This document shows positions 15,796 through 24,457 of a stretch of 64,000 bases of DNA, piece by piece. Positions within the stretch are counted from its first letter, which is position 1; each line of letters starts with the position of its first letter. The position numbers were made by a program, and so were the translations under genes. This DNA is from Micromonospora sp. WMMD1128 (GTDB lineage Bacteria; Actinomycetota; Actinomycetes; Mycobacteriales; Micromonosporaceae): NCBI RefSeq assembly GCF_027497235.1, contig NZ_CP114902.1:4738001-4802000 (forward strand), given 5' to 3'. Under the pieces are notes generated by a model. That model saw nothing but the letters and a program-made list of their open reading frames with translations, searched no databases and was not told the origin of the DNA.

Positions 15796-17016
15796 TCAGC
15801 AGTGTGGCGCCGTGCCACCGAGGGTCGTGGACAGGTACGCGTGACTCACGTACAGCCCGCCCACCAACCGGTACCAGCGGGTCGTGGTGCGGTACGGCCC
15901 GGCGATCCGCTGCCCGGTCACGTAGCAGTCGATCGGCACCTGCGCGTAGGTGGCGGCCAGGCCACGGCTCGGATACGACGTGCCGGCGCCGGTACGCAGG
16001 TTCAGCGGCCCGGAGCCGACCACGCCCCGGATCCCGCCGGCCGTCCAGAGCAGGGTCACGTTGATCCACGCGTTGTCGGTGAGCCGAAGTCCGTCCCAGA
16101 ACGTCCCGTCGGCCAGGTCCAGCCCGGCCGGGTTGCGTACGGTCCGCCCGAACTGGTCCCGCCCGCCGTTGTATCCGTTCTGGTAGGCGGCCTGGGCCTC
16201 GGGGAGCCCCTGCGGCAGGTTCCGCCAGTTCTCCCGGACGTCCGACGGGTTCCACCAGTCGTCGCGGGTGTTCCACGGGCCGACGTCCCAGACCGGCGCG
16301 TACTCGCAGCGGCTTCCGTTCGTGGTGCAGACCTTGACCGTGTAGTCACCCGTTCCGCGTGGGGAGAGGCCACGCCGGGAGGGCAGCGCCGCGAAGTGGT
16401 CCCGGACGCCGACGGTGTGCCCGTTGGCGGTGACGCCGCCGACGAGACCGATCCGGGTCGCGTACACCCGGTAGGTGAGCGCGACGGCCGACGGGGCGGT
16501 GGTGGCGGCGGCGGTGTCGGCGGCGAGGGTCAGGCCGGTCACGGTGGCCTCCGCGGCGGCGTTCGGGGTGGTCAGCACGACCCGGGCCTGCACCTGGGTG
16601 ACCGGCTGGTCGAAGATCGCCTCGGCGGCGTCCCGCCACTCGGTCCAGCGACCGGCCCGCCACCCGCGCACCTGGGCCGTCGCCGTGCCGCCGCCTCCGG
16701 TGCGGGCGGCGAGCTGGGCGCGTACCCGGGTGGCGGGGTGGTCGAGCGCGCGCGGCGCGGTGAGCAGGATGCCCTCGGCGACCGGTCCGGCCGCGGCGGC
16801 GGGCCGGGTGTGGTCGGTGGGGTGGGGATCGGCCAGCCGCAGGCGGCCGGACCGCCAGGTGACGTTGACGTCGTCGTCGCCGGCGACGGTCAGGTCGGCG
16901 GACCAGCGTTCGGATCCGGGGGCGGCGGCGCGGGCCGGCGTGGGGGCGCCGGGCAGGCCGGCGGCCAGGGCGAGCAGGGCGGTCAGGGCGATTGAGGTAC
17001 GGCGAACACGGGCCAT
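15796..17016 (-). CDS. Secreted protein with C-terminal SH3b-like domain
   Basis: A 406-residue exported protein. The Arg-rich N-terminus, hydrophobic core and APTPARAAA cleavage-like site at about residue 30 form a signal peptide. The middle contains a conserved block (YAPVWDVGPWNTRDDWW, then AAYQNGYNGGRDQFGR) seen in uncharacterised actinobacterial secreted proteins. The C-terminal ~70 residues resemble a bacterial SH3 domain (LNLRTGAGTSYP, LYVSHAYLST). Probable cell-wall association; no catalytic motif recognised. GAGGAG lies 6 nt before the ATG. Divergent from nei2. Confidence 0.85.
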   Translation of the reverse strand: MARVRRTSIALTALLALAAGLPGAPTPARAAAPGSERWSADLTVAGDDDVNVTWRSGRLRLADPHPTDHTRPAAAAGPVAEGILLTAPRALDHPATRVRAQLAARTGGGGTATAQVRGWRAGRWTEWRDAAEAIFDQPVTQVQARVVLTTPNAAAEATVTGLTLAADTAAATTAPSAVALTYRVYATRIGLVGGVTANGHTVGVRDHFAALPSRRGLSPRGTGDYTVKVCTTNGSRCEYAPVWDVGPWNTRDDWWNPSDVRENWRNLPQGLPEAQAAYQNGYNGGRDQFGRTVRNPAGLDLADGTFWDGLRLTDNAWINVTLLWTAGGIRGVVGSGPLNLRTGAGTSYPSRGLAATYAQVPIDCYVTGQRIAGPYRTTTRWYRLVGGLYVSHAYLSTTLGGTAPHC

Positions 17017-17915: not shown

Positions 17916-18082
17916 CGTGGAACTTCCACGAACCGCCTAACATCCCCCGAGATACGGACGATTGGGTACTTCCCTCTCGCCCCTCCGGCGTCGCATGCTG
18001 CGATGGACCGCTCACCGCTCGTCAGCAGCGCGTACGCCGCCACGCCGGGGTGACGGCCGCGCGCCCCGATCCGGGGAGAGCC

Positions 18083-21000
18083 ATGGTGCTGTTCCGCAGA
18101 CTCCGGCCGGTCCGGGCCGCCACGGTCGCCGAGGAGACCGCGCCCACCGTCCCCACCGCCCGCGCCACCGACGAAAAGCCGACCGATCCGACCGGGCCGA
18201 CCGCTTCGGCAACGCCGACCAGGCCGACCGAGACGGCCGCGCCGACCGCGCCGAACCCGGCGAGCCTGGACCCGGACGTCGCGCCGCGCCTGTTCGGGCC
18301 GGTGCCGAACACCGCCGCCAGCCCGCTGCCCGTGCTCGACCCGGACGGCCGGCCGGTGCCCGGCACCGGCATCCGCAAGTTCGTCGACCCACTGCCCGCA
18401 CCCGGCCGGCCGGCCACCGCCGGGCTCGGCGCCCGCCTGCCCGTCGCCGTGCCCGACACCATCACGTGGCCGGGCTGCGACTACTACGAAATCGGCCTCC
18501 AGGAGTACGCGCAGCGCCTGCACCGGGACCTGCCGGCCACCCGGCTGCGCGGCTACCGGCAACTCAACCTGGGCACCGACGCCGCCGGCCACAACACGGT
18601 GAGCCCGCCCGACCGCCCCTGGCACCTCGGCCCGATGATCGTGGCGCGACGGGGCCGGCCGGTGCGGGTCAAGTTCATCAACCAGCTCCCCACCGGCCGG
18701 GCCGGCGAACTGTTCCTGCCGGTCGACGAGACGCTCGACGGGGCCGGCGCCGGGCCGCTCGACGGGCCCGCGCCCTACCCGCAGAACCGCGCCGTGCCGC
18801 ACCTGGCCGGGGCGCGTACCGCGTGGACGAGCGCCGGCAACCCGTGGCAGTGGGTGACCCCGGCCGGCGAGATCACCCCGTACCCCGTCGGGGTCGGTGT
18901 GATTCCGGTGCCGGACATGCCCGCGCCGGGCGCGGGCGCCACCACGCTCTACTTCCCGAACGACCAGAGCGGCCGGCTGATGTGGCTGCACGACAACACG
19001 CTCGGCCTGTCCCGGCTCACCACCTACTCCGGGCAGCTCGCGCTCTGGCTGCTCACCGACCCGGCCGAACAGCGGCTGGTGGACGACGGCGTGCTCCCTG
19101 CCGACCAGCTCCCGCTGGTGATCGAGGACAAGACGTTCGTGCCCGACGACGCGCAGCTCGCCGCCCAGGACCCGACCTGGGACCGGAACCGCTGGGGCGC
19201 CAAGGGCAGCCTCTGGCACCCGCACGTCTACCAGCCCCGGCAGAACCCGTACCGGCTCTGCGGCACCAACCCGACCGGCCGCTGGGACTACGGGCCGTGG
19301 ACCCACGACCCGGACGGCGGGGCGAGCCCGTGGGTCGCCCCGGTGCCGAGCCCGCACCACGACCCGGCGACCGAGCCGGACGAGCCGCCGCTGGTCCCGG
19401 CCGTGCCGCACCCCTCCGCGGTCCCCGAGGCGTACGGGGACACCCCGCTGGTCAACGGCGTCGCCTACCCGTACCTGGAGGTCACGCCGACGGCGTACCG
19501 GTTCCGGATCCTCAACGCCTGCGCGGACCGGGCGCTCAACCTCCAGCTCTACCGGGCCGCCTCGGACGGGCCGATGTGGGCGCCCGACGGCGGGCCGGCC
19601 GACCCGCTCGCCGGCGAGGTGCCGATGGTCGAGGCGGTCCGCGCGCCCGGCCGGCCGGCGGACTGGCCGGCGGACGGGCGCGACGGCGGCGTGCCCGACC
19701 CGGCCGCCGCCGGCCCGGAGCTGATCCAGATCGGCAACGAGGGCGGCCTGCTCCCGGCCCCGGTGGTGCTGGCGAACCGGCCGGTCGACTACCGGTACGA
19801 CAGGCAGGACCCGACCGTGCTCAACGTGGACGGGCACGCGCTGCTGCTCGCCCCCGGCGAACGCGCCGACGTGGTGGTGGACTTCTCCACCGTGCCGCCG
19901 GGCGGCACGCTGATCCTCTACAACGACTGCCCCGCGCCGCTGCCCCGGTTCGACCCCCGCTACGACCACCACACCGGCGCACCGGACCGCACCGCCACCG
20001 GCGGCCTCCCGCCGACCCACCCCGGCTACGGCCCAAACACGCGGACCCTGCTCCAGATCCGGGTGACCGGCACCCCGGGGCCGCGCTTCGACCGGCGGCG
20101 GCTCGCCGCCCGGCTGCCCGGCGCGTACGCGGAGAGCCAGCCGCCGCCGATCGTGCCGCAACCGGCGTACGACCCGGCGTTCGGCACCCGCACCGCCGGC
20201 CCGACGCTGGTCCCGGCGCGGGCCGGCGCGGTCACGTTCACCCCGCTCGGCGGATCCGCCCCGGTCACGCTGCCCCTGGCGGTGAAGTCGGTCGGGCAGA
20301 TGTTCGAGCCCCGGCACGGCCGGGCGGTGGGCCGGCTCGGCGTCGGCCACCCGATCGGCGGACCGCTCGTCCCGGCCGTCCTGCCACTGGGCCCGGCCGA
20401 CCCGGCCACCGAGGTGCTGTTCGCGACCGACCCGACCGTGCCGGTGGGCGCGCCCGCGGACGGCACCCAGCTCTGGCGGATCGTCGGCGACTCCGACCGC
20501 ACCCACCCGGTGCACGTCGAGGGCGTCGACGTGCAGGTGGTCAACCGGGTCGGCTGGGACGGCACGCTCCGCCCGCCCGGCCCGGGCGAGCTGGGCTGGA
20601 AGGACACCGTCCGGGTCAATCCCCGGGAGGACGTGATCGTGGCGCTGCGCCCGGTCCCGCCCGACCTGCCGTTCCGGATCGGCGACAGCGTACGGCTGCT
20701 CGACCCGACCCGCCCGGCCGGCGCGCGGCTGGACGCCGGCCCGGTGAGCCCGGTCGACGGTGGGCCCGCGGTGGTGGTCAACCACCTGGTCAATCTGGGT
20801 TGGGAGTACCGCTGGCAGACCCGCTCGGCGGGGCTGCGCGACCAGGGCATGAGCCGGCCACTGGTGCTGCGGGTGTCGCCCCGCGCGCCGACCGGGCTGA
20901 CCGCCACCCCGGCGCCGGGGTCGGCCACCGCGCTGCCCGCCATCGCGCTGACCTGGACCGGCAACGGCAGCCGCCCACCGGCCACCAGCCATTGGTTGCA

Positions 21001-21751
21001 ACGCGCCACCGACAGCGCCTTCACCGCCGGCCGCACCGAGATCACGGTGGCCGCCGCCGCGACCCGGTACACGGACGCGACAGTCACCCCCGGCGTCACC
21101 TACCACTACCGGATCCGGGCCGAGAACGCGGTGAGCTGCTCGGCCTGGTCGAACAGCGCGCCGGCCTCGGTGCGGCTGGCCCCACCGGCCCGGCTGACCG
21201 CGGTGGTGCCGCCGGCCGCGCCGGTGCGGGTGGCGCTGCGCTGGGCGAACCACTCGTTCGCCACCGGCGTGGACGTGCAGCGGGCCACGAACCCGACGTT
21301 CACCAGCGGGCCGGGCACCACGGCGATCGCCGTCGGCGAGACCCACCTGGATCCGGCCGTCGCCCCCGACACCACCTACTACTACCGGGTACGCACCACC
21401 TACCTCGGTGCGGCGTCGCCCTGGTCCACGGTGGCCACGGTGACCGTACCGCCCCGACCGGCCACGCCCACGGGCGTGACCGCCACCGTCGGCGCGCCGT
21501 CCCCGGACACCGCCTTGGTGACGCTGGGCTGGTCGGCGGAGGCGCCGGCCGGGCCGGGCGCCGGTTTCCTCGTGGAACGCGCCCTCGACGGGGCCTTCAC
21601 CCGGGAACCGGCCACCTTCCGGGCGACCGGTCGCGGCTTCACCAACACCGGCCTGTCCCGCGGCGTCACCTACCACTACCGGGTACGCGCGACGAACGTG
21701 GTGGGCGCCTCCCCCTGGACCCCCGCCACCAGCATCACCACCCCACCCTGA
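18083..21751 (+). CDS. Multicopper-oxidase-fold protein lacking copper ligands, with FN3 repeats
   Basis: 1222 residues. The N-terminal ~925 residues align by motif with CotA/bilirubin-oxidase-type multicopper oxidases, but every copper motif is altered: HLHGG reads HLAGA (H240), YHDHT reads LHDNT (H303-N305), HPMHLHG reads HPVHVEG (H808-G814), and HCHxxEH..MMRP reads RWQ...GMSRP (about 911-925). The fold is probably kept and oxidase activity lost. Three FN3 domains follow (about 932-1222; repeated TYHYRVRA). No signal peptide or helix is seen; the N-terminus is Thr/Ala/Pro-rich. ATG 18083 has GGGGAG just upstream. A structural, spore-coat or matrix role is possible but unproven. Confidence 0.82.
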   Translation: MVLFRRLRPVRAATVAEETAPTVPTARATDEKPTDPTGPTASATPTRPTETAAPTAPNPASLDPDVAPRLFGPVPNTAASPLPVLDPDGRPVPGTGIRKFVDPLPAPGRPATAGLGARLPVAVPDTITWPGCDYYEIGLQEYAQRLHRDLPATRLRGYRQLNLGTDAAGHNTVSPPDRPWHLGPMIVARRGRPVRVKFINQLPTGRAGELFLPVDETLDGAGAGPLDGPAPYPQNRAVPHLAGARTAWTSAGNPWQWVTPAGEITPYPVGVGVIPVPDMPAPGAGATTLYFPNDQSGRLMWLHDNTLGLSRLTTYSGQLALWLLTDPAEQRLVDDGVLPADQLPLVIEDKTFVPDDAQLAAQDPTWDRNRWGAKGSLWHPHVYQPRQNPYRLCGTNPTGRWDYGPWTHDPDGGASPWVAPVPSPHHDPATEPDEPPLVPAVPHPSAVPEAYGDTPLVNGVAYPYLEVTPTAYRFRILNACADRALNLQLYRAASDGPMWAPDGGPADPLAGEVPMVEAVRAPGRPADWPADGRDGGVPDPAAAGPELIQIGNEGGLLPAPVVLANRPVDYRYDRQDPTVLNVDGHALLLAPGERADVVVDFSTVPPGGTLILYNDCPAPLPRFDPRYDHHTGAPDRTATGGLPPTHPGYGPNTRTLLQIRVTGTPGPRFDRRRLAARLPGAYAESQPPPIVPQPAYDPAFGTRTAGPTLVPARAGAVTFTPLGGSAPVTLPLAVKSVGQMFEPRHGRAVGRLGVGHPIGGPLVPAVLPLGPADPATEVLFATDPTVPVGAPADGTQLWRIVGDSDRTHPVHVEGVDVQVVNRVGWDGTLRPPGPGELGWKDTVRVNPREDVIVALRPVPPDLPFRIGDSVRLLDPTRPAGARLDAGPVSPVDGGPAVVVNHLVNLGWEYRWQTRSAGLRDQGMSRPLVLRVSPRAPTGLTATPAPGSATALPAIALTWTGNGSRPPATSHWLQRATDSAFTAGRTEITVAAAATRYTDATVTPGVTYHYRIRAENAVSCSAWSNSAPASVRLAPPARLTAVVPPAAPVRVALRWANHSFATGVDVQRATNPTFTSGPGTTAIAVGETHLDPAVAPDTTYYYRVRTTYLGAASPWSTVATVTVPPRPATPTGVTATVGAPSPDTALVTLGWSAEAPAGPGAGFLVERALDGAFTREPATFRATGRGFTNTGLSRGVTYHYRVRATNVVGASPWTPATSITTPP

Positions 21752-22037: not shown

Positions 22038-22802
22038 TCAGGAGGGGCGGGGCTGGGGGGTGCGGAGTTCGGCCAGGGCGGCGGCCACGCCGTGCAGCAT
22101 GTCGGTGGCCTCGGTCAGGCGGGCGGCGGCGGGGTGCGCGGTGTTCGGACGGGCATCCTCGGCCACGTAGCCGGCGGCGGCCACCACCAGCCGCTCGTAG
22201 GCGGCCACCCCGTCCTCCAACTGGGCGACGAGCATCGCGTGCACCTCGGCGAGCGGCCCGTGCGGGGCGAGCTTCACCGCGCCTTCCACGCCTGCCACCC
22301 GGGTGGCCAGTTCGCGTAGGGAATGGTCGGCCTCGGCCGCTTCCCGGACCGCCGGCTCGGCCAGCCCGGTCAGCCGACCGGCCAACCCGCCGAGGGTGAG
22401 CGCGGCCCGGTCGAGCCGGGCCCACGGCTCGGCCGCGGCGGTGCCGCGCAGACCGAGGCGGGCGCGGACCCGGCGTACCTCGGCGAGGACGCCCGGGCCC
22501 ACCGGCAGCCGTTCGACGGCGGCGACCAGCCGGGCGCGGGATCGGGCGGCGGCCTCGGCCGGGTCGAGCGCGGGCGGGGCCGGCACTGCCGCGAGCGCCC
22601 GGTGGTCGGCCCAACGCCAGCACGCCACCGCGATCGCGCTCCCTGCGGCGCCGGCCCAGGCCGCGTCCGGCAGGCCCAGCCCCGCGTACGGGGTGAGCAC
22701 CGCGGCGGCACCGCCGAGCCCGCCAGCCAGAACGCTCCACCGCCGCGCCGAGCGCCGCAGCTTGCCCAGCCGGCGGAAGTGCCGCGTCCGCTCGTCCGCC
22801 AT
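22038..22802 (-). CDS. pspM: Phage-shock envelope stress protein PspM-like
   Basis: 254 residues with two adjacent hydrophobic segments near residues 22-60 and a long charged helical remainder. Position directly downstream of pspA and clgR, as in mycobacteria where PspM is an integral membrane partner of PspA, is the main support; sequence similarity of PspM proteins is low. ATG 22800-22802 starts 17 nt after the pspA stop. The frame stays open upstream but overlaps pspA. Confidence 0.7.
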   Translation of the reverse strand: MADERTRHFRRLGKLRRSARRWSVLAGGLGGAAAVLTPYAGLGLPDAAWAGAAGSAIAVACWRWADHRALAAVPAPPALDPAEAAARSRARLVAAVERLPVGPGVLAEVRRVRARLGLRGTAAAEPWARLDRAALTLGGLAGRLTGLAEPAVREAAEADHSLRELATRVAGVEGAVKLAPHGPLAEVHAMLVAQLEDGVAAYERLVVAAAGYVAEDARPNTAHPAAARLTEATDMLHGVAAALAELRTPQPRPS

Positions 22803-22818
22803 CGCTCTCCCCCGTCCG

Positions 22819-23670
22819 TCAGCCGGTGGTGGTCTCCCCGGTGCCACGCTCCCGGCTCATGCTGGCCCGGATCTCGTCCAGCTTGGCGGTCGCCGCCGGG
22901 TCGGTCGCCGGACCCACCGCGGGGCGCTCCGACCGGCCGTCGACCTGCTTGCCGGCCATGCTCGACCGGATCTGTTCCAGCCTGGCCGACCCGGCCGAGT
23001 CGATCGACGCCTTCTGGATCTCCAGCATCCGGCCCTCGACCGAGTTGCCGGCCAGCTCGGCCCGGCCCATGGCGGTGGCGTAGCGGCTCTCGATCCGGTC
23101 GCGCACCTCGTTCAGCGACGGGGTGTTGGCCGGCGCGGTGAGCGACGACATCGACTCCAGCGAGCGGGCCACGCTCTCCTGCATCTTGGCCTGCTCGAGC
23201 TGGCTGAGCAGCTTGGTGCGCTCGGCGAGCTTCTGCTGGAGGATCATCGAGTTGTTCTCGACCGCCTTGCGGGCCTGCGCCGCCGCGTTCAGCGCCTGGT
23301 CGTGCAGCGTCTTCAAGTCTTCCAACGCCTGCTCGCCGGAGACCAACTGGGTGGCAAGCATCTGGGCGGACTGCTCGAAGCGCCCGGCCTCGGCCTCGTC
23401 ACCCCGGCCCCGGGCCTGGTCGGCAAGCGTCAGCGCCTGCCGCGCGTTGCCCTGGAGCTGCTCCACCTCGGTGATCTGCCGGGACAGCTTCATCTCGAGC
23501 TGACGCTGGTTGCCGATCACCGCCGCCGCCTGCTGGACCAGCGCCTGGTGTTGCCGCTGCGCCTCCTCGACCGCCTGCTGGATCTGCACCTTCGGATCGG
23601 CGTGCTCGTCGATCTTCGCGCCGAAGGCCGCCATCAGGTATTTCCAACCCTTGACGAACGGGTTAGCCAT
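22819..23670 (-). CDS. pspA: Phage shock protein A (PspA/IM30 family)
   Basis: A 283-residue peripheral membrane coiled-coil protein of the ESCRT-III-like PspA/Vipp1 family, which stabilises stressed membranes. The amphipathic N-terminal helix ([15 protein letters not shown]) is followed by the long coiled coil at about 25-185 ([27 protein letters not shown]) and a loosely conserved C-terminal third. ATG 23668-23670 is preceded by GAGGCGGAG. It lies between clgR and pspM, the actinobacterial arrangement in which ClgR activates pspA. Confidence 0.92.
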
Positions 23671-23767
23671 CTCCGCCTCGTCCCCTCACAGTAGCGTCAC
23701 GCCTACATCGTCCCAGTCGGACGCCACTCCGGCACCCGTACGATCCTGATCAACATTACGACGTGGA

Positions 23768-23778
23768 CGCCAGCGGCG
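23768..23778. promoter_or_regulatory. Candidate ClgR operator upstream of pspA
   Basis: The dyad CGCCAGCGGCG lies 98 nt before the pspA start, in the clgR-pspA gap. It fits the CGC-N5-GCG shape I recall for actinobacterial ClgR sites except at the central base. A TAATGT hexamer about 15 nt downstream on the minus strand could be the -10. Untested. Confidence 0.35.
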
Positions 23779-23797
23779 ACATGGGCGGACGGCACGG

Positions 23798-24247
23798 TCA
23801 GGCGGCGCAGACCACGTCCCGCTCGGCGGGGCGCACACGCGCGCTGCGCAGCGTCGCCTTGAGCGGCGAGTCCTGCCGGACCTGGACGGCCACCGCGCCG
23901 TCGGAGGTGACCTGCCGGACCCCCCGGTTCGTCGCCTTGCGCACGGCCGGCGTGGCCACCGACGTCGACTCGACGGGCTCGTCGGCGACCGGCACCAGCA
24001 CGCCGGGCATCTGCTCGGCCAGCGCCACCGTGTCGCTCACCTCGCGCAGCAGCTCGGACAGGCGGGCGCCGAGCGCGTCGCAGATCGCCGCCAGCAGCTC
24101 GCTCGATGGTTCCTTCTGGCCGCGTTCGATCTCGGAGAGGTAACCGAGGCTGACGTTGGCGGCGGACGAGACCTCGCGGAGGGTGCGGTGCTGCCCCTGC
24201 CGGCGCGCCCGCAGTGCGTCACCGATCACCCGGCGTAGCAGGACCAT
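23798..24247 (-). CDS. clgR: ClgR-type transcriptional activator
   Basis: 149 residues. An XRE-type helix-turn-helix occupies about 5-65 ([35 protein letters not shown]), the signature of ClgR, the activator of clp protease and envelope-stress genes. The C-terminus ends in CAA; in Streptomyces a terminal Ala-Ala is reported to target ClgR to ClpP, so controlled proteolysis is likely here too. ATG 24245-24247 follows GGGGAGG. Next to pspA and pspM as in mycobacteria. Confidence 0.9.
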
Positions 24248-24457
24248 CGCACCTCCCCGTGAACGGGTCACCATGCCCGACCGCGCCGCGCGGCGCCGAG
24301 CGCGGCGAGTCGCCGCCCCGGCGCCGGCGTCGCCCGCCGGAGCCTTCCCGCAACCGTACCCGCTGACCGCCGCGACGACATCCCACCCCGCCTGTCCAAT
24401 CCCGTCAGAACGACCGTTCCGACGCGCCCGCGGTCGGGTGTGTCGGTGTCGGCGGGG

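Follow-up and report, generated by a model that had tools for sequence, protein, structure and literature searches.

The 64,000-nucleotide stretch of Micromonospora sp. WMMD1128 analyzed here (the window) carries on its forward strand, at positions 18083..21751, an open reading frame for a protein of 1222 amino acids (stop codon 21749-21751). The gene encodes a copper-ligand-poor relative of the spore coat laccase CotA with a C-terminal tail of fibronectin type III (FN3) domains. An original prediction, made from the sequence alone, had described the product as a multicopper oxidase fold with all four copper motifs destroyed, fused to three FN3 domains. Alignment and comparison of the predicted structure with CotA reveal three cupredoxin domains and homology to the CotA-type multicopper oxidases. 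The comparison was performed by VIA-align, relying on Foldseek's own ranking, and yielded the match to a cupredoxin array that the prediction had anticipated; CotA (1gsk) is the closest solved relative of the window protein.

The N-terminus is variable, rich in Pro, Thr and Ala and without a hydrophobic segment (residues 1-88, 18083..18346; all features lie on the forward strand unless stated otherwise). It is followed by cupredoxin domains 1 (D1, residues 130-356, 18470..19150, placed by alignment and structure comparison), 2 (D2, residues 441-620, 19403..19942) and 3 (D3, residues 781-930, 20423..20872), all with approximate boundaries. D3 contains the would-be type-1 site and the Pfam Cu-oxidase_2 match at residues 784-857. 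The tail consists of the modules FN3-1 (residues ~934-1031, 20882..21175), FN3-2 (residues ~1032-1126, 21176..21460) and FN3-3 (residues ~1127-1222, 21461..21748). Pfam fn3 scores 34.4 bits against a gathering score of 25, with two significant stretches in FN3-2 and FN3-3; the third module, FN3-1, is supported by alignment and by strands in the model, which also mark the other two. The predicted number of FN3 domains was thus confirmed.

In the intact relatives the copper-binding columns read HLHG, HDHT, HPVHFH and WHCHMVDHEDFDMM (HCHxxxHxxxxM), in register with the copper motifs of CotA. The window protein departs from each of them. Motif 1 reads HLAGA (residues 240-244, 18800..18814), in which the type-2 histidine H240 is kept and the type-3 histidine is lost (A242). 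In motif 2, LHDNT (residues 302-306, 18986..19000), the type-3 histidine H303 is kept and the other is N305. Motif 3, HPVHVEG (residues 808-814, 20504..20524), keeps the type-1 H808 and the type-2 H811, and its type-3 histidine is replaced by E813. Motif 4 is WQTRSAGLRDQGM (residues 911-923, 20813..20851), the region from residue 910 reading RWQTRSAGLRDQGMSRP; here His-Cys-His has become Gln-Thr-Arg, the second type-1 histidine is L918 and the axial methionine is kept. Five of the 12 ligand columns therefore retain their ligand: the two type-2 histidines (240, 811), one type-3-beta histidine (303), one type-1 histidine (808) and the axial M923, the types being assigned by the Fet3p mapping in PMC4203857. 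The other seven ligands, the cysteine among them, are missing, and the protein does not have the full type-1, type-2 and type-3 set with His-Cys-His of a multicopper oxidase. The motif readings of the original prediction were correct residue by residue; its statement that all four motifs are destroyed holds in that each is broken, and needs amending in that five ligands remain.

Loss of copper ligands in the genus and the family

Two protein searches were performed, in each of which 8000 candidates were scored and the best 120 listed; for the window protein these are the best 120 of 3617 scored relatives. An intact paralogue used as query matched all 101 genomes of the genus; internal stops are absent from the listed matches. 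The 12 positions are readable in 97 of these genomes and intact in none: two ligands are kept in 3 genomes, three in 6, four in 19, five in 50, six in 15 and seven in 4. Ligand columns are named below by CotA residue numbers, which we take to be H105, H153, H155, H491, C492, H493 and M502; the columns themselves come from the alignments. C492 is lost in 97/97 copies (Ser in 71, Thr in 23, Gly in 3) and H155 in 96; H105 is retained in 88 and H153 in 91. The position of N305 is Asn in 96 of the 97. The remaining four genomes hold fragments (G005, G016, G069) or, in G014 (890 contigs), a gene spread over several frames. One copy counted among the 97, L191 (G028, 260 contigs), shifts into another frame immediately ahead of the last ligand position, and its M502 entry (Thr) carries no meaning. 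The splitting of the gene over frames in these two fragmented drafts (L201 in G014, L191 in G028) may be an assembly error or a real broken copy.

An intact paralogue turned up in four genomes of the 101 (G034, G049, G067, G072). None was found in the complete genome of the window, where a Cu-oxidase_2 search returned this reading frame only (the same search was positive in 9/14 control genomes) and a Cu-oxidase_3 search gave no match (positive in 8/14 controls). In 150 genomes of the family, representing 44 genera, some match was obtained in 118, mostly short, and near-full-length matches came from 8 genera only. Among the matches listed for the intact query, 79 of 81 further relatives (P0127-P0207) have 12/12 ligands. 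Two fall short: P0193 is a member of the eroded clade, and P0145 was not counted as eroded, being ligand-poor only at an unreliable C-terminal end whose letters vary between alignments. L133, a copy in genus g20 with 2/12 ligands left, represents a further lineage with strong erosion and a long branch.

The eroded gene lies between a gene for an Fpg/Nei-type glycosylase and an Rv2743c-PspA-HTH operon. All 77 eroded loci of Micromonospora, Verrucosispora, Salinispora and Plantactinospora adjoin Fpg and/or Rv2743c, 66 of them both (many loci stop at a contig end), as do 43/43 further eroded loci tested. Neither gene stands beside any of the 11 loci with 12/12 ligands. A further synteny comparison also covered the genera g10, g32 and g36. 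A tree calculated without the motif columns covers 135 of 207 proteins, after removal of near-duplicate rows and of two in three distant ones; the eroded clade comprises 97 of the 135 rows (Shimodaira-Hasegawa-like approximate likelihood ratio test, SH-aLRT, 97). In a more careful tree of 57 chosen rows, an eroded clade of 40 rows has a support of 99/98, and its sister group is formed by intact Micromonosporaceae paralogues. Judged by phylogeny and synteny, the gene is vertically inherited and retained throughout the genus at one site.

No single ligand is lost in all 40 eroded rows. The M. pisi group has lost H491, C492 and M502 and keeps H155 and H493. In the Plantactinospora group H493 is lost in 13/13 rows, H155 is mostly lost and C492 mostly kept. 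L079 retains 11/12 ligands with H493 as the sole loss. If no ligand was regained, the best 57-row tree requires at least 6 losses of C492 and at least 8 of H493, as approximate counts. The sequences indicate that copper competence, complete in the ancestor, most probably disappeared on more than one occasion. Ligand loss is thus conserved across the genus, and the exact set of lost residues differs between lineages.

Alternative ligands were sought among the His and Cys residues that are near-invariant in 95 genus copies. Two of them, C132 and H426, have been gained in comparison with the intact relatives; neither is at a ligand position, and a type-1 or type-3 site rebuilt from other residues, which the original prediction had considered, found no support. 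Cys132 (18476-18478) is present in 97/97 genus copies and is Ser in the intact relatives; Cys480 (19520-19522) is near-invariant, and the two might form a disulfide if their distance allows it. A salt-bridge swap between R811 and an acidic residue at 813 was also considered. Among 98 rows, 32 of the 39 with Arg have Asp or Glu at 813, but these give only 6-8 phylogenetically independent pairs and the sign test is not significant, and the swap was rejected.

Close homologues share an MxLFRRLR-like N-terminus in the alignment, which points to the same start codon, and a GGGGAG resembling a ribosome-binding site (18073..18078) is located just 5′ of the ATG. The interval that separates the start codon from the Fpg gene contains the conserved block GGACGAWTGGGTANTTCC (17956..17973). 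Of 23 upstream regions aligned, most have it; in L014, L071 and L073 it is absent or unaligned. It is probably part of the promoter; its GGGTAC is presumably similar to a SigB-type -10 element. The block has no second match in the window, or in the genome at up to two mismatches, and a lead towards a regulon was dropped because of this single genomic match. The Rv2743c, PspA and HTH (ClgR-like) genes (22038-24274, minus strand) are convergent with the eroded gene and syntenic in the tested loci. Beside the Fpg gene, a 406-amino-acid protein with a signal-peptide-like start and no Pfam match is encoded on the minus strand (15796-17016). It has a tblastn match in 43/82 loci, some of which end before it, and may be variably present at an otherwise fixed site.

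Constraint and location of the protein

Entropy was compared over the 97 genus copies. Where 10 intact relatives show no variation (368 columns), the median is 0.08. The 12 ligand columns average 1.24, against 0.35 for random non-ligand columns of the invariant kind, and 0 of 20,000 draws of 12 such columns attain 1.24. L199 and L200 are not among the 95 genus copies that underlie the analyses of near-invariant residues, of the ratio of nonsynonymous to synonymous substitution (omega), of co-occurrence at 811/813 and of single domains. Omega of the gene against 11 relatives is 0.355, and the medians of its neighbors, with Fpg left out, are 0.13-0.40. For the per-domain comparison, pairs were matched at an overall difference of 0.10-0.22, the intact side consisting of nine sequences. 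In 2057 eroded pairs the differences are 0.126 for D1, 0.168 for D2, 0.221 for D3, 0.148 for FN3-1, 0.157 for FN3-2 and 0.260 for FN3-3. The corresponding values in 32 intact pairs are 0.187, 0.129, 0.135, 0.298, 0.252 and 0.193. The motif windows differ by 0.087 in the intact and by 0.243 in the eroded pairs. D1 is the most conserved and D3 the least constrained cupredoxin domain of the eroded genus set. At unmatched divergence, the Plantactinospora group is intermediate (FN3-1,2/D3 0.89); in intact forms from other lineages FN3-1 is fast (0.441) and D3 slow (0.183), FN3-2 not being comparable. As read from these alignments, constraint is shifted: the copper motifs have been released, and D1 together with FN3-1 and FN3-2 has been tightened. 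The original proposal that selection acts on the fold and not on copper is borne out by the predicted structure and by the genus-wide ligand loss.

The window protein has no signal peptide, in agreement with the original prediction; the highest mean hydropathy over 12 residues within its first 60 is 0.41, and the frame that stays open 5′ of the start codon contains no hydrophobic stretch (maximum 1.03). A hydrophobic N-terminus was found in 0/115 eroded rows, in 0/11 intact Micromonosporaceae paralogues and in 60/79 other intact rows, as scored by a hydropathy rule and not by a signal-peptide predictor. Since neither the eroded rows nor the intact paralogues have a signal-peptide-like N-terminus, classical export is unlikely, and the window protein is probably not exported by this route. 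The lack of a signal peptide, for which the location had been called a puzzle, is thus an inherited trait, shared with the eroded rows and the intact paralogues, and no peculiarity of this genome. The simplest order of events would be that export was lost first and copper later, in one of two sister clades.

Explanations for the eroded protein

We consider it rather probable that the window protein is a vertically inherited, likely cytoplasmic pseudoenzyme that descends from an FN3-tailed multicopper oxidase of the CotA type and now acts as a scaffold or docking protein. The signal peptide would have been lost before the copper ligands, and the loss of export would have placed an enzyme in need of copper in a compartment without free copper, thereby driving the loss of copper. 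As the His-Cys-His relay and most of the type-3 ligands are missing, the four-copper chemistry would be gone and no substrate would be oxidized with dioxygen. The binding surfaces of the present protein may lie on D1 and FN3-1/2, and a scaffold role is plausible by analogy with SufI. The original suggestion of a scaffold or adhesin-type protein is compatible with the constraint on D1 and FN3-1/2 as regards the scaffold; an adhesin does not fit the 0/115 eroded rows with a signal-peptide-like N-terminus. A wider proposal, which we see as much reason to doubt as to accept, is that one orthologous gene in one bacterial family turned from oxidase into pseudoenzyme several times and stepwise after loss of the export signal, with selection moving to D1 and FN3-1/2. 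Living relatives retain 11, 10, 9, 8, 7 and down to 2 ligands. The half-way forms include Plantactinospora-group copies with whole type-1 and type-2 sites and a broken type-3 site, and the M. pisi group, in which the type-1 cysteine is gone and one type-3 set is whole.

Several observations weigh against the pseudoenzyme scaffold and its proposed history. The conserved neighbor genes identify no partner and no pathway for a scaffold. The intact sisters, although unexported, have all their ligands, and loss of export is therefore not sufficient for loss of copper. L079, in which H155 is present, nests within a group with Gln at this position and demands a reversal or extra losses, which makes the loss counts approximate; some forks of the tree are weak and reversals are possible. 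For the core, the median omega of the eroded set (0.40, 4465 pairs) somewhat exceeds that of the intact set (0.33, 34 pairs), so part of the pattern is relaxation, and the G+C content here has probably compressed dS. The intact comparison set of nine sequences is small. Without the motif windows D3 shifts modestly, from 0.164 in the intact to 0.195 in the eroded pairs, and D2 (0.168 vs 0.129) and FN3-3 (0.260 vs 0.193) are looser in the eroded set, the tail as a whole not being tightened. Finally, H240, H303, H811 and D/E813 occur together in 23/95 genus copies, the close relatives of the window protein included.

The last observation favors a remodelled metal enzyme, in which H240, H303, H811 and E813, all at former type-2/type-3 positions, would form a mononuclear metal site at the old trinuclear center. 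With Arg in place of H811 in 42/97 genus copies and seven residue types at position 813 in the 97, such a site is not conserved, and we regard this explanation as very improbable. Hardly more probable is a role without catalysis in which the former substrate pocket would sense or bind a small ligand, aromatic or otherwise. The retained framework around the domains would suit it, but D3, the type-1 substrate side in CotA, is the least constrained cupredoxin domain in the eroded set while FN3-1/2 has been tightened.

A structural protein of a spore layer, CotA-like, unexported and built into the spore, deserves more attention, although it too appears unlikely. CotA is the closest solved relative and lacks a signal peptide, like the window protein, and intact relatives occur, among the matches listed, in the spore formers Bacillus, Neobacillus and Dictyobacter. 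However, seven intact relatives from the Bacillus group have hydrophobic, signal-peptide-like N-termini, which argues against a coat family as such, and no spore proteomics naming the protein was found among the best-ranked literature matches and in the main text of one paper. Neutral decay towards a pseudogene, which the drift of the ligand columns and the more than one frame in the G014 and G028 drafts might suggest, can hardly be the explanation: 101/101 genus genomes match, no listed match has an internal stop, omega is well below 1, and FN3-1/2 is more conserved than in the intact clade. Open, constrained reading frames are observed across the genus. The pseudoenzyme scaffold accordingly remains our preferred explanation.

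Comparison with known systems

No published description of this protein was found among the best-ranked literature matches, and the main text of a Salinispora tropica paper (PMC7888443) mentions neither multicopper nor fibronectin. The labels multicopper oxidase or laccase that some sources give to eroded members call for caution in annotation; by their sequences these proteins can hardly be active oxidases. The NCBIfam equivalog model of PhsA (phenoxazinone synthase) gives 62 bits against a cut-off of 950. CotA of Bacillus subtilis has a homologous fold. The window protein differs from it in having only 5/12 copper ligands, larger insertions, a long N-terminus and the FN3 tail, and it is not known as a spore protein. 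The intact FN3-tailed Micromonosporaceae paralogues of the sister clade (P0115, P0117-P0126; L075, L077, L080, L083-L086, L113, L114) share its architecture at ~55% identity. They differ in their 12/12 ligands and, at the 9 loci listed, in their position on the chromosome.

SufI/FtsP of Escherichia coli (2uxv) likewise combines a multicopper oxidase fold with largely lost copper ligands, and scaffolding was proposed by the authors of PMC2661564. It is a substrate of the twin-arginine translocation (Tat) system, located at the septal ring, and its chain of 451 residues has no FN3 tail. The window protein and the 115 eroded rows lack, by the hydropathy rule, the signal peptide of SufI, and the NCBIfam FtsP equivalog model scores 48.6 bits against a cut-off of 581, so that the loss of copper is independent of that in SufI. 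The insect multicopper oxidase-related protein (MCORP) keeps both type-2 histidines and has lost the His-Cys-His block; it is essential, and no oxidase activity was detected for the beetle protein, as described in the available part of PMC4203857. The window protein resembles it in retaining the two type-2 histidines and losing His-Cys-His. MCORP differs in belonging to an animal lineage and in having a function known from knock-down; an FN3 tail is not mentioned in that part of the paper.

Copper-free members of the superfamily are therefore known, and the novelty here is that ligands were eroded in parallel and by degrees at a single locus, together with a shift of constraint. If the proposed history is true, the gene is a natural stepwise record of an enzyme becoming a scaffold. 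With the graded series one can test separately in which order ligands were lost, how much copper the half-way forms still bind and what the new function is. SufI and insect MCORP represent end points, whereas the single syntenic gene described here spans from one to ten lost ligands and has, in addition, a fully intact sister paralogue.

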